From Candidatus Marisimplicoccus framensis (lineage in GTDB: Bacteria; Bacteroidota; Bacteroidia; Flavobacteriales; Flavobacteriaceae), in the NCBI GenBank assembly GCA_905182065.1, contig CAJIZN010000001.1, positions 372,001-436,000 of the forward strand: DNA of 64,000 nt, in the 5' to 3' direction. The position numbers and the translations under genes were made by a program. The notes below the pieces were generated by a model. It did no database searches, was not told the DNA's origin, and was given only the letters and a program-made list of their open reading frames with translations. This document shows, in pieces, positions 53,409 to 57,840 of this stretch (its first letter is position 1; every line of letters starts with the position of its first letter).

Positions 53409-54113
53409 ATGGAAGACAACCCAATACCAATATATGTCATTGAATTCATGTCCGATGAATGGAAAACATGGGCTTTGTTTTCGATAATATTTATATCAAT
53501 TCCATTAATTCTTGGCAGATTTTTAGATAGAAAGCGTAAAATTCAGGTCACGTATGCCATTGGTGGTATTATGATTATTGATTTTATTGCAGAACATTTA
53601 TTTCCTTTAATGAATGGTACTTGGGATCTTCAATATAATATTCCTCTTCATCTCTGTGGTATTTCTTCAATTATATGTTGTATTCTTCCTTTTGTTAAGA
53701 AGAAGGAGCGGTTGTTCCAGTTTGTATATTATACAGGAATCATTGGAGGTATAATGGCAATTTTAACTCCTCAACTTAATTATTTTGATGGAACTTTGAG
53801 ATACTATCTTAACTTTTTTGTGTCACATAGTTTAATAATTGCTCTACCAATATTTATGTTTCTCCACCTAGGAATGAAGCTGCCTAAGTTTTCCTGGTTT
53901 AAGATTTGGATACATTTAAATATTCTTATGGCTATAATCATGCCTCTAAACTTTTTGCTTGGATCAAATTATATGTATGTAAATGCACCGCCTGAAGTTA
54001 GTAATCCTTTAATTATTGGTGATTGGCCATACTATCTGTTAATTTGGGAACCACTTGTAATCATTATAGCATACTTAATTTATGTTATAAGTAAAAGAAA
54101 AATTATCCTTTGA
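53409..54113 (+). CDS. YwaF-like (TIGR02206) membrane protein
   Basis: A 234-residue integral membrane protein with about six or seven hydrophobic segments. IAEHLFPLMNGTWDLQYNIP and LHLCGISSIICCILPF are typical of the YwaF/TIGR02206 family. The function is unknown. Its stop overlaps the start of the histidine phosphatase gene by 4 nt. Confidence 0.78.
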   Translation: MEDNPIPIYVIEFMSDEWKTWALFSIIFISIPLILGRFLDRKRKIQVTYAIGGIMIIDFIAEHLFPLMNGTWDLQYNIPLHLCGISSIICCILPFVKKKERLFQFVYYTGIIGGIMAILTPQLNYFDGTLRYYLNFFVSHSLIIALPIFMFLHLGMKLPKFSWFKIWIHLNILMAIIMPLNFLLGSNYMYVNAPPEVSNPLIIGDWPYYLLIWEPLVIIIAYLIYVISKRKIIL

Positions 54114-54604: not shown

Positions 54605-55214
54605 ATGAATTCCCCTATTAAAGTTTTTAGTAATTGGGTTATTAATGGTAAAGATGAGGGAATGGAAAAAGGACATTCTCCAGTCTGTAAAAAACATGCT
54701 TGATTATTCAATAAAAGAACTTAAAGAATATAGTTTTATTGATGCTGGATGTGGGAATGGTTGGGTTGTTAGAAAAGTAGGTTGTGATCCTAAATGTAAA
54801 AAAGCAATAGGTGTTGATGGGTCTTTAAATATGATTGAGAAGGCAAAAAAGCTTGATGGGGATAGCCAATACTATTGTACAGATCTAATGAACTGGAGTC
54901 CAGATAAAAAGGTTGATCTTGTTCATTCAATGGAAGTATTCTATTATTTTGAAAATCCTGATATGCTAATCAAGCATATCCATGATAACTGGATAGTGAA
55001 AGGTGGAAGATTGATAATGGGTATTGATTATTATAAAGAAAACAAGCCTTCTCATTCATGGCAAGAAGACTGTGGTATAAATATCATGAAGATGTTTCCA
55101 AAAGAAAGTTGGATTACATTTTTTAAAAAAGCAGGTTTTAATAAAACAGAATCATGGTTTAATGGAGGAGATGGTGAATGGAACGGAACATTAATTGTTT
55201 CAGGAATCAAGTGA
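54605..55214 (+). CDS. Class I SAM-dependent methyltransferase, one frameshift
   Basis: About 202 residues when reconstructed. The true start is probably ATG 54605 (MNSPIKVFSNWVINGKDEG), with one extra base near 54683; the second frame continues SVKNMLDYSIKELKEYSF. Motif I FIDAGCGNGWVVRKVG, the acidic residue in IGVDGSLNMIEKAK, and the VDLVHSMEVFYYFENPD segment mark a Rossmann-fold methyltransferase. The substrate is unknown. The last 15 nt overlap the convergent FMN reductase gene. Confidence 0.82.
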
Positions 55215-55751
55215 TGACTCTACTTGGTTTTTAAAGTCCCTGATTTGAATTTCAAATTTATCATTTAAAGACTTATTTGTTATTCCATCTTTATCTGAAA
55301 AATCATCACTAAAATTTGGAAATGAAAACACAGGTATAATGAGGTTACTCTGTCTTGAAAAACGCTCCTCAGCAATCTGTAAAACAGTCTTAGCACCATT
55401 TGATCCATTTGATGCTGCTAATAGAAATAAAGGTTTGTTACACCAAACTACTTTTTCAACTACAGATATCCAGTCAAAAATATTTTTAAAGGCTGCGGTG
55501 TAGGCACCATTATGTTCCGCCAGAGATATTACTATCCCATCACATTCGCTAATTAGTTTTTTGAATTTTAATGCTTTTTCTGGAATACCCTCTATTTTCT
55601 CCCTGTCCTCGCTGTAAATAGGCATTTCAAAATCATTAAGATCAATAATGATTGACTCATCTGGAGCAATCTTATTCACTGTATAAGTGGCAAGTTTACT
55701 GTTAATTGAATTTTTTGAGTTTGATGCCCCAAAAGCTAAAATTTTACTCAT
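55200..55751 (-). CDS. NADPH-dependent FMN reductase
   Basis: A 183-residue flavodoxin-like reductase. ILAFGASNSKNSINSKLATY is the phosphate-binding loop for FMN, and ISLAEHNGAYTAAFKNIFDW is the family segment with the flavin-contacting residues. It reduces free or bound flavin, quinones or azo compounds with NAD(P)H. Its ATG shares one base with the stop of the CDGSH microprotein gene (TAATG), a sign of coupled translation. It overlaps the methyltransferase gene by 15 nt. Confidence 0.9.
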   Translation of the reverse strand: MSKILAFGASNSKNSINSKLATYTVNKIAPDESIIIDLNDFEMPIYSEDREKIEGIPEKALKFKKLISECDGIVISLAEHNGAYTAAFKNIFDWISVVEKVVWCNKPLFLLAASNGSNGAKTVLQIAEERFSRQSNLIIPVFSFPNFSDDFSDKDGITNKSLNDKFEIQIRDFKNQVESSLDS

Positions 55752-55834
55752 TATTTATTTAGGTGAGATCCATCACAATACCCTTCTGGATTTGATGTAT
55801 TTCCACACCCACATTTTGGCCTATTTGAATTCAT
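55751..55834 (-). CDS. 27-residue CDGSH-motif microprotein
   Basis: A short gene missed by ordinary length cut-offs. The peptide is only 27 residues and carries CGCG at 8-11 and YCDGSHLNK at 19-27, giving a Cys8-Cys10-Cys20-His24 ligand set like that of CDGSH/mitoNEET [2Fe-2S] domains. The spacing between the second and third Cys is 9 residues, one more than in canonical CDGSH domains. The start lies 1 nt after the YceI stop and the stop shares a base with the FMN reductase ATG, so it sits inside a tight three-gene operon. Metal binding (Fe-S or zinc) is inferred from the motif. Confidence 0.75.
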   Translation of the reverse strand: MNSNRPKCGCGNTSNPEGYCDGSHLNK

Positions 55835-55835
55835 A

Positions 55836-56450
55836 TTATAAAGTTTTAAGATTAATTTCTAATTCTATATCATCATAAATCATTTTGTCACCAAGCTTTT
55901 CAAAAAATGTTCCCGATCTAAACTGGATATCATACATAGATCTATCAAAAACTAGATCTGCTTTCCAACCATCCATCGAATTTATTATTTCAAATTGGAT
56001 AGGATGAGTATAACTTTTAATTGTTAGCTCTCCTGAAACTAACCACTTACCATCTGAAATTAGTTCAGAATCCAAAATAGATATTTTAGCTGTTGGATAT
56101 GATTCAACAGAAAAAAAATCATCTGACTTTAAATGAGTTTCAAGTCTATTTTTTGCAAAATCCGTGGGTAAATCGTCATTCTTAATTGTCGACATGTCTA
56201 CAATGAATTCCCCAGTAGAAATCAATCCACCTGATAATTCAAACTGACCAGAAGCAAAATTAATAGTCCCATAGTGGTAGCTAGTAGAAACTTCTCTCCC
56301 TGTCCAAGTAATATAACTAGTTTCGTTTTCAATATTATAGACTCCATCTGAAGCGTTTAACGTCGATACCTCTACAGCTTCTTGTTTGCTATTGTTTAGA
56401 TTACAAGAGACTAGAATTGTAAACATTAATAAGGTGAATATTTTTTTCAT
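55836..56450 (-). CDS. YceI-like domain lipoprotein
   Basis: A 204-residue lipoprotein (lipobox LVSCN, Cys16) with a YceI domain, a lipocalin-like barrel that binds isoprenoids or other long hydrophobic chains. The segments SYITWTGREVS, GTINFASGQFELSGG, FIVDMSTIKNDDL, HLKSDDFFSVESYPTA and the GELTIKSYTHPI strand are typical. It is the first gene of the operon with the CDGSH microprotein and FMN reductase, suggesting a shared redox or quinone-related role. Confidence 0.88.
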   Translation of the reverse strand: MKKIFTLLMFTILVSCNLNNSKQEAVEVSTLNASDGVYNIENETSYITWTGREVSTSYHYGTINFASGQFELSGGLISTGEFIVDMSTIKNDDLPTDFAKNRLETHLKSDDFFSVESYPTAKISILDSELISDGKWLVSGELTIKSYTHPIQFEIINSMDGWKADLVFDRSMYDIQFRSGTFFEKLGDKMIYDDIELEINLKTL

Positions 56451-56587: not shown

Positions 56588-56702
56588 TAAAGTTAACTAT
56601 ACTTTATAAAAGTAAAGTTTGTTTTACAATTATATAAAATAATCATTAAAGTAAAGTTTGTTTTACAAAATATTTTTATATATTTGTAAAGTTAGTTTTA
56701 CA
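56588..56702 (+). promoter_or_regulatory. Four palindromic operators upstream of the XRE regulator
   Basis: Three near-identical palindromes of the form GTAAAGTTTGTTTTAC occur at 56612-56627, 56651-56666 and 56686-56701 (the last with one changed base). A fourth, more distant copy TAAAGT-N7-ACTTTA lies at 56588-56606. Copies two and three are identical over 21 bp. The last copy ends 1 nt before the start codon at 56704 and covers the predicted transcription start. They are the likely binding sites of the regulator itself. Confidence 0.8.
56657..56686 (+). promoter_or_regulatory. Promoter of the XRE-Stealth operon
   Basis: A -33-like TTTG (56657-56660) and -7 TATATTTG (56679-56686) separated by 18 nt fit the Bacteroidota consensus. 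The -33 lies inside operator 56651-56666 and the -7 touches operator 56686-56701. The predicted start of transcription is about 10 nt before the ATG, so the mRNA is close to leaderless. Confidence 0.6.
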
Positions 56703-56703
56703 T

Positions 56704-56898
56704 ATGCTGGTAAATAGAGTAAAAGATTTTAGAAAAGGGGGTGGGCTAACCCAGGAAGAGCTTGCTAACAGAGCAGGCGTAAGCAGGCAAACAATCATTT
56801 CAATTGAAAAAAACAAGTTTATTCCAGGTCTAGATGTCGCTTTAAAAATATCTAAATCTCTGAATACTCCTATTTATAAGCTTTTTTATTTTGTTTAA
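56704..56898 (+). CDS. XRE-family helix-turn-helix regulator (YozG-like)
   Basis: A 64-residue single-domain DNA-binding protein. The helix-turn-helix runs through LTQEELANRAGVSRQTIISI (about residues 15-34), followed by EKNKFIPGLDVALKISKSLN. It has no sensor or oligomerisation domain. The small size and the palindromes just upstream fit a dimeric autorepressor. Its stop codon directly abuts the ATG of the Stealth gene, so the two are co-transcribed. Confidence 0.88.
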   Translation: MLVNRVKDFRKGGGLTQEELANRAGVSRQTIISIEKNKFIPGLDVALKISKSLNTPIYKLFYFV

Positions 56899-57840
56899 AT
56901 GGAAGCAATAGATGCAGTTATAACATGGGTTGACGGGTCGGACCCAGACTACCAAATGAGGTATGATAAATACCTCAGCGGAAGAAGTGATATTAAAAAA
57001 CAATACCTACAATCAAATGAAATTACTTTTTGCATTGGTTCAATTTTAAAATACGCACCCTTTGTGAGAAAAATATTTATTGTTACAGACGGTCAATCTC
57101 CTAATCTGGAAAAGATAAAAAAATTTGCTCCTTTAGACAAAGTAAACATTGTTGATCATAAAGAAATATTTAATGGAGCTGAAGGTTTTCTGCCAACATT
57201 TAATGTCCGCTCAATTGATGCTGTTCTATATAAAATAAATGGCCTTTCAGAAAAATTCATATATTTTAATGATGACATGTTTTTGATAAAAAAAAGCAGT
57301 CCTGAAGAATGGTTTGTTGAGAATAAAGCTGTGTTGAGAGGTAATTGGTCGCAAACATATAACACCCAGCCATTAAAAAAAATATCAAACATGATCAAAA
57401 GTGCTCTTAAAATTCGACCAAGCTATAATGCAGCTCAGTCTAAGGCGGCAAATATTGCCGGATTTGAAAGAGAGTATTTTAGATCATATCATTCTGGCAG
57501 ACCTCAGTTAAAGTCTGTTATTAAAAGTTTCTATGACAAGAATCCCAAAGTGCTTGAAAAACAACTGAAATATAAGTTTAGGGATGCCAAACAGTACATG
57601 CCCTACAGTCTTTGTTGGCACCTTTTAATTAAGGAAGACAAGTATATAGCAGCTTCAAAAAGCAGACTTGTAGAGATTGAGAAAATTAGAAACTATAGCC
57701 CTAAAAAACTTAAAGAAGTCTTAAGCGAGCTGGATCGCAACAAAGAGGTAAAGCTTTTAAACATTCAGGACCTAAACTATGCCTCAGAAGATACGAGTAT
57801 GGTTTTCAAGAGTTGGTTTTACAATAAACTAACCAATTGA
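56899..57840 (+). CDS. Stealth-family sugar-phosphate transferase
   Basis: A 313-residue Stealth protein, a family that includes capsule polymerases such as bacterial hexose-1-phosphoryl transferases. Conserved region 1 is AIDAVITWVDGSDPDYQ, region 2 includes ILKYAPFVRKIFIVTDGQSP and FIYFNDDMFLIK, and region 3 is around YHSGRPQLKSVIKSFYDKNP. No transmembrane segment is seen. It stands apart from any capsule or glycosyltransferase cluster and is controlled with the XRE gene. The acceptor glycan is unknown. It converges on the class V aminotransferase gene, with a 2-nt gap. Confidence 0.86.
   Translation: MEAIDAVITWVDGSDPDYQMRYDKYLSGRSDIKKQYLQSNEITFCIGSILKYAPFVRKIFIVTDGQSPNLEKIKKFAPLDKVNIVDHKEIFNGAEGFLPTFNVRSIDAVLYKINGLSEKFIYFNDDMFLIKKSSPEEWFVENKAVLRGNWSQTYNTQPLKKISNMIKSALKIRPSYNAAQSKAANIAGFEREYFRSYHSGRPQLKSVIKSFYDKNPKVLEKQLKYKFRDAKQYMPYSLCWHLLIKEDKYIAASKSRLVEIEKIRNYSPKKLKEVLSELDRNKEVKLLNIQDLNYASEDTSMVFKSWFYNKLTN

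Follow-up and report, generated by a model that had tools for sequence, protein, structure and literature searches.

The locus described here raises the question of whether an open reading frame of only 27 codons, located between a gene for a YceI-family lipocalin and a gene for an FMN reductase, is a gene and, if it is, what its product does. The frame lies in a stretch of 64,000 nucleotides from Candidatus Marisimplicoccus framensis, which was analysed as a whole and is referred to as the window. The genome of the window comprises 1.23 Mb on two contigs and is 87.6% complete. A preliminary description of this DNA read the frame as a CDGSH-motif peptide with a set of four metal ligands, held its tight packing on both sides to be difficult to attribute to chance, and suggested that with its neighbours it would form a minimal redox unit. 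The translation of the frame agrees with the ligand positions given there (Table 1). The packing is likewise as claimed: the stop codon of yceI is followed after a one-base gap by the peptide frame, and at the downstream junction, TAATG, the last A of the peptide stop TAA is the first base of the FMN-reductase ATG. The N-terminus of the YceI protein resembles, by eye, a lipoprotein signal (LVSC).

Table 1. Position and identification of the peptide gene, its operon partners and the adjoining regulatory features in the window
Feature	Position	Strand	Remarks
27-residue CDGSH-x9 microprotein gene	55751..55834	-	reads MNSNRPKCGCGNTSNPEGYCDGSHLNK*; ligands Cys8, Cys10, Cys20, His24
YceI-family lipocalin gene	55836..56450	-	PF04264 E 1.8e-21, 77.5 bits vs cut-off 23.7
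NADPH-dependent FMN reductase-family gene	55200..55751	-	PF03358 E 1.4e-25, 90.1 bits vs cut-off 24
Xre-type helix-turn-helix gene, divergent from operon	56704..56898	+	PF01381 E 8.1e-15
Three palindrome-like repeats, TAAAGTTnGTTTTA type, between Xre gene and yceI	56611..56702	.	by eye

The peptide is conserved throughout much of the genus. It is matched at E<=1.2e-7 in 19 of the 24 other genus genomes, in 18 of which the same operon is found; with the window included, 19 genomes thus carry a peptide of 26-28 residues between yceI and the FMN-reductase gene. One further frame, a related 28-residue ORF in G007, lies outside the operon and has an unread base in the codon of its first Cys. The gap between yceI and the peptide is 1 nt in 18 of the 19 operons and 2 nt in the other, and the junction with the FMN-reductase gene reads TAATG in 17 operons; of the remaining two, one has a 4-nt overlap and the other a 2-nt gap. 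Invariant in all 19 are Cys8, Cys10, Cys20 and His24, as well as Gly9, Gly11, Thr13, Pro16, Gly18 and the CDGSH stretch. The mean pN/pS of the peptide (171 pairs from the 19 operons) is 0.24, compared with values of 0.30 and 0.28 for YceI and the FMN reductase, respectively; within the peptide, the motif from Cys8 to His24 has 0.12 and the flanks have 0.50. The nucleotide columns that vary are likewise concentrated at the third codon position (10, 10 and 22 of 28 at positions 1, 2 and 3). Because the ligands are invariant, pN/pS is low and the junctions are nearly fixed, the frame is, as judged from these comparisons, a real protein-coding gene under purifying selection, and a chance ORF is ruled out by the conservation of the operon and by pN/pS. 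The preliminary description had argued for a translated gene and had named loss of the ligands, of the start and stop, or an excess of nonsynonymous changes as what would speak against it; none of these was seen in the 19 operons, 18 of which come from other genomes of the genus. This gene has been overlooked by the Pfam and NCBIfam models, in which the window peptide finds no match at E<=1 and E<=0.1, respectively. It is single-copy in its genome at E<=10, and a second YceI is present elsewhere in the same genome.

The same data bear on the possibility that the peptide itself has no function and that the short frame merely couples translation of yceI to that of the FMN-reductase gene. The very small size of the frame and the conserved 1-nt gap and 1-nt overlap would suit such a role, but the invariant ligands and the motif pN/pS of 0.12 over 19 operons largely refute it, and the retention of the same motif in fusions and other contexts described below also speaks against it. 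Coupling alone is consequently regarded as very improbable.

The operon also appears to be gained or lost as a unit. No match to YceI or the FMN reductase at E<=0.001 was found in the five peptide-negative genus genomes and G007, with a positive result for the control G021, an absence that is weak on its own because these six genomes are only 54-84% complete. The neighbouring aminotransferase has 66% identity to its counterpart in G020 and only 31-33% relatives in the other five. G020 retains the methyltransferase, the Xre regulator, the Stealth gene and the aminotransferase in this order but lacks the three-gene cassette. This absence within kept synteny indicates, in one clear case, that the three genes come and go as a block. 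The divergent Xre gene is present in 18 of the 19 operons according to a regular-expression search (the miss is L015) and is kept in the cassette-less G020, where repeats similar to the TAAAGTTnGTTTTA type precede it. By eye, the palindrome-like repeats near the Xre gene look operator-like, as if the gene were autoregulated, and the Xre protein is a possible regulator of the operon.

A second CDGSH-x9 microprotein, of 38 residues and with the same ligand spacing, occurs in four genus genomes (L033:3034-3150 (-), L034:3384-3500 (-), L035:5653-5769 (+) and L036:4558-4674 (+)). It adjoins a 250-aa protein for which only weak Pfam hints were obtained (L033).

The next question is whether the peptide belongs to a known type of CDGSH domain. 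The canonical consensus, C-X-C-X2-(S/T)-X3-P-X-C, separates the second Cys from the third by eight residues (available text of PMC5859297), and the best solved CDGSH proteins, when aligned, have the same spacing. The motif of the peptide is C-x-C-x9-C-x3-H, with nine residues in this interval, and the nine-residue spacing is found in the window peptide and in all family members that were read. The three-Cys-one-His ligand set of the pattern CxC...CDG[STA]H is present. Thus, of the motif named in the preliminary description, the ligand set stands, while the canonical spacing gives way to an x9 variant. The likeness to CISD/NEET domains (PF09360) consists in this order of ligands and in a profile-profile comparison, in which the x9 profile aligned with a profile of five canonical motifs at 97.2% probability with a one-residue gap. 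In direct searches, 15 of 25 x9 members touched PF09360 at E<=1, the best at E 0.017 and under the curated cut-off, the window genome contained no PF09360 match at E<=1, and the x9 profile A1 had no match among solved structures at E<=1.

The difference from the CISD/NEET type extends beyond the spacing. The cluster module of the CDGSH domain is described as needing an N-strand, a P motif and pairing (PMC3174974, available text). The 27-residue peptide has only seven residues N-terminal and three C-terminal of the motif, which on inspection leaves no room for an N-strand or P motif, and in all 19 operons Cys8 is preceded by K, R or Q, not by a hydrophobic residue. The peptide would therefore be described as resembling a CDGSH site at the level of its ligands while falling outside the known CDGSH types. 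The x9 form may stand among the orphan CISDs of the supplement to PMC3174974.

Outside the genus, the motif occurs in several contexts. When 395 genomes of the order were searched with the profile, 30 had a match at E<=1e-3, and 34 motif places were found in this sample: 33 of the x9 form and one canonical x8 motif (L029 in G094), which was excluded from the x9 count. Ten of the 33 are fused ahead of YceI (including G080, with an in-frame stop), three lie beside YceI (the window, G114 and G314), eight are at the C-terminal end of RicT, and 12 are free-standing. The free-standing copies include three with a divergent HxlR gene (G151, G351 and G380) and nine without a recognised partner. Five of the RicT placements were read, and the other three (G360-C4, G247-C5 and G352-C73) rest on an unread 390-codon open frame. 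The RicT/YaaT (PSP1) proteins that carry the C-terminal mini-domain are 381-393 aa long (L054, L058, L059, L060 and L062) and come from one family of the order; the one RicT fusion compared with NCBIfam matched a model named for a regulatory subunit of an iron-sulfur complex (NF041131, 7.2e-76). A scan of named genomes covered the 80 best of 533 YceI loci, with four fusions among them, two of which are apparently on the same contigs as G145 and G412. In a phylum sample of 395 genomes there was no match at E<=1e-4 besides the window's own genome; being a sample, it does not settle the limits of the x9 family. A phage-borne origin of the peptide gene was rejected, since a tblastn search of 50,697 phage records gave no match at E<=1. 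The peptide can be placed in a family of CDGSH-x9 mini-domains that is small and lineage-restricted, and in which many members are tied to YceI and to a redox-type regulator.

Two members of this set are irregular. In G080 (L022 / L082), an in-frame TAA lies inside the CDGSH head and YceI is intact after an internal ATG, which points to decay or a sequence error. At L125:5584-5667 (isolate MED-G119), a motif frame lies 3' of YceI with no ATG, GTG or TTG before the motif.

The distribution is relevant to the reading in which the mini-domain is a zinc knuckle that serves as a docking or tag element, binding one Zn2+ and tethering or timing a partner (export of YceI, assembly of RicT) and taking no part in electron transfer. 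The SEC-C tail of SecA is a zinc-binding element of this docking or tag type. A tag would be expected to occur as the mini-domain does, at N-termini, at C-termini and alone, and no fold elements of a CDGSH domain surround the motif. AlphaFold2 is in line with the latter point: for the YceI fusion L101 (alignment of 25 rows), it predicted the YceI barrel with confidence and placed a helix at 39-52, whereas the first 60 residues, modelled at low confidence with pLDDT block means of 43-64, contained no strand; the modelled frame began at the stop-to-stop start and so included six residues ahead of the ATG. However, the CxC...CDGSH ligands and the conserved Thr and Gly fit the [2Fe-2S] type of motif, and both the partners and the neighbouring regulator are redox-linked. 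A zinc tag is accordingly considered unlikely.

The association with YceI bears on the function. In nine aligned fusions, the motif is followed by 6-12 residues, a hydrophobic stretch and the YceI barrel. Since the motif precedes the signal sequence, the head should stay in the cytoplasm with YceI outside; this topology of a cytoplasmic head and an exported YceI is a prediction from the order of the segments. In a tree of 38 YceI proteins, comprising 15 motif-linked rows (seven of the 12 fused proteins and eight linked but separate YceI) and 23 others, the seven fused proteins group together (94/83), and the motif-linked proteins as a whole do not. Forcing the 15 into one clade costs 65 log-likelihood units (AU p=0.0004); this tree contains one long branch (L077), which calls for caution, and meeting long branches were flagged in a quick tree of 98 rows. 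The rejection of a single clade means that the link between YceI and the motif arose more than once, and such repeated linkage suggests a functional connection. The association claimed for the window operon therefore turned out stronger than proposed, as it recurs beyond the genus both as fusions and as neighbours. Among the papers searched, none joined CDGSH with YceI and none joined HxlR with YceI.

The position of the motif also argues on descent. Simple fission of a YceI fusion was rejected as the source of the operon, because CDGSH stands before YceI in the fusions and after it in the operons, and because one clade is rejected by the AU test. The wider view that the peptide is a decaying remnant of a larger CDGSH protein or of a YceI fusion draws on its being smaller than known CDGSH domains, on the stop-broken motif of G080 and on the L125 motif that has no start codon. 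It is at odds with the differing gene order and with the tree, and the constraint seen in the 19 operons, which show no decay, refutes it for the genus of the window, making it extremely improbable.

A second recurrent association is with regulators. A divergent HxlR gene lies approximately 40-120 nt from 11 of the 12 distinct fused loci (G080 counted; the exception is L100). Among the YceI loci listed that have no motif, a divergent HxlR gene was found within 400 nt in none of 74 and anywhere in the locus in six; these control loci are mostly from other families, so that lineage is only partly controlled for. L102, whose contig starts inside the motif, was omitted from both counts, and what is left of it looks like a further YceI fusion. 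A pirin gene follows in nine of the 12 fused loci (not in G136, L100 and L101, with the L100 contig ending about 900 nt downstream). All seven HxlR proteins sent to Pfam passed the PF01638 cut-off, and the HxlR, pirin and nitroreductase names were confirmed for the proteins sent. A Cys about ten residues before GGKWK, near the N-terminus, is present in frame in 14 of 15 HxlR proteins; the fifteenth (L078) is split across two frames and has the Cys in the other piece. In YodB, CatR and HypR, an N-terminal Cys senses quinones, diamide and HOCl, and these proteins control azoreductase and nitroreductase (PMC6943732, available text). The likeness to these DUF24/HxlR-type regulons is that an HxlR-type gene with an N-terminal Cys stands head-to-head with a CDGSH gene in the relatives, the Bacillus regulons holding azoreductase and nitroreductase genes. 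The differences are that CDGSH and YceI are not mentioned in the available text of PMC6943732, and that the window operon has an Xre gene, not an HxlR gene.

Two features of the fused loci may be added. The HxlR / CDGSH-YceI / pirin cluster recurs at L076:3952-5989, L083:2747-4872 and L084:4540-6580, and an MKRxxF[IL]K stretch, Tat-like by eye, is present in seven of nine pirin frames.

The FMN reductase behaves differently. A phmmer search of the fetched loci detected relatives of it outside the window's genus in no case, and its role as a general partner is not borne out, since it is a neighbour only within the genus. The recurrent partners are YceI and, in relatives, the HxlR regulator, more than the FMN reductase. 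Of the "minimal redox unit" of the preliminary description, the conserved stand-alone CDGSH-type peptide is thus upheld by sequence comparison and the FMN reductase as a recurrent partner is not; the redox role is one that we infer.

The regulator link is the main reason to consider a sensor in place of a relay, in which loss or oxidation of the cluster or thiols under stress would control export of YceI, the FMN reductase or the divergent regulator. The mini-domain stands head-to-head with redox-type HxlR genes even where there is no YceI (G151, G351 and G380), and in the fusions it immediately precedes the signal sequence. Yet the peptide has no DNA-binding or enzyme part, and no HxlR gene adjoins the window operon. 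A sensor is for these reasons judged quite unlikely.

The reading that best accommodates these results is that the peptide is a microprotein of the cytoplasm that binds a metal, probably as Fe-S, and belongs to a YceI-centred module against quinone or oxidant stress; about an even chance is given to this reading. Its broader part, a YceI-linked stress role with some metal, is somewhat more probable than its opposite. In favour were counted the conservation and purifying selection, the absence of the block from G020, the ten fusions and three neighbours, the rejection of one clade by the AU test, the HxlR link, the match with the canonical profile and the iron-sulfur name of the RicT fusion. 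Weighing most heavily against it are the lack of the CDGSH fold elements, the number of copies that occur in the absence of YceI, Xre in place of HxlR in the window operon, and the restriction of the FMN reductase to the genus. The low confidence and lack of strands in the AlphaFold2 model of the fusion head count against it as well. With 12 of 33 places free-standing (nine of them partnerless) and eight on RicT, YceI is not the sole partner. YceI and the peptide are moreover expected on opposite sides of the membrane, and the in-frame stop in the G080 motif and the L125 motif that lacks a start codon also count against this reading.

In mechanistic terms, the three Cys and one His of the lengthened CDGSH motif would most likely hold a [2Fe-2S] cluster, and the peptide would probably do so by dimerising or when bound to a partner. 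Exported across the inner membrane, the YceI lipoprotein would carry an isoprenoid of quinone-like type on the far side, with the peptide and the flavin reductase remaining inside, and the peptide would serve in defence against quinone or oxidant stress. The carrier would be menaquinone, because this is the quinone that Bacteroidota use. Electrons could pass from NAD(P)H through the FMN reductase and reduced FMN to the peptide cluster, and from there to the quinones of the membrane, the pool that supplies YceI. This path, by way of the FMN reductase and the peptide cluster to quinone, is proposed by analogy and is held to be rather unlikely.

The analogy has two sources, both known here from the available text. 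In mitoNEET, electrons pass from a flavin reductase via FMNH2 and the [2Fe-2S] cluster to oxygen or ubiquinone (PMC9490426). YceI lipocalins bind ubiquinone-8 or other isoprenoids, and the YceI member BcnA shields the envelope from lipid peroxyl radicals, with cytochrome b561 as the proposed reductant (PMC9113575). The operon, with its YceI lipocalin, CDGSH-type peptide and flavin reductase, would accordingly supply the parts of a mitoNEET-like chain. The likeness to the mitoNEET chain lies in a CDGSH-type site that is encoded alongside a flavin reductase and a carrier protein of quinone type (PMC9490426); in contrast, the peptide is bacterial, tiny and lacks a membrane helix of its own, YceI is across the membrane, and the flow of electrons is only presumed. 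The likeness to the BcnA-LcoA peroxyl-radical defence lies in a YceI lipocalin grouped with a candidate reductant gene (PMC9113575), whereas the window operon has the peptide and the FMN reductase instead of cytochrome b561. No cytochrome b561 (PF01292) match at E<=0.01 was found in the window genome, which is 87.6% complete.

A more general proposal, tentative and somewhat unlikely, is that the CDGSH-x9 mini-domain, about 20 residues long and working with no beta-sandwich of its own, represents a minimal class of metal-cluster protein. Free or attached to YceI or RicT, it would act on the cytoplasmic side, as electron or sensing end, in a transmembrane system of quinone protection, a bacterial counterpart of the mitoNEET chain. 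If a cluster is held, a CDGSH site would work without the paired fold that has been described as obligatory. To our knowledge, a cluster-holding peptide of 27 residues would be among the smallest natural iron-sulfur proteins. The links to YceI and HxlR offer, in addition, a concrete candidate role for flavobacterial YceI lipocalins.

Some other genes near the operon also deserve mention. The methyltransferase gene, a single ORF of 202 aa in relatives, has its start divided between two frames in the window (54605-54703 and 54645-55214); a frameshift or a sequence error would explain this. The Xre gene and a class-V aminotransferase gene enclose a frame at 56899-57840 for a Stealth-type protein (PF11380, PF17101). 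The TMEM164 family is known mainly from animals, and the frame at 53409-54113 encodes a bacterial protein that matches it strongly (PF14808, 6.2e-41).
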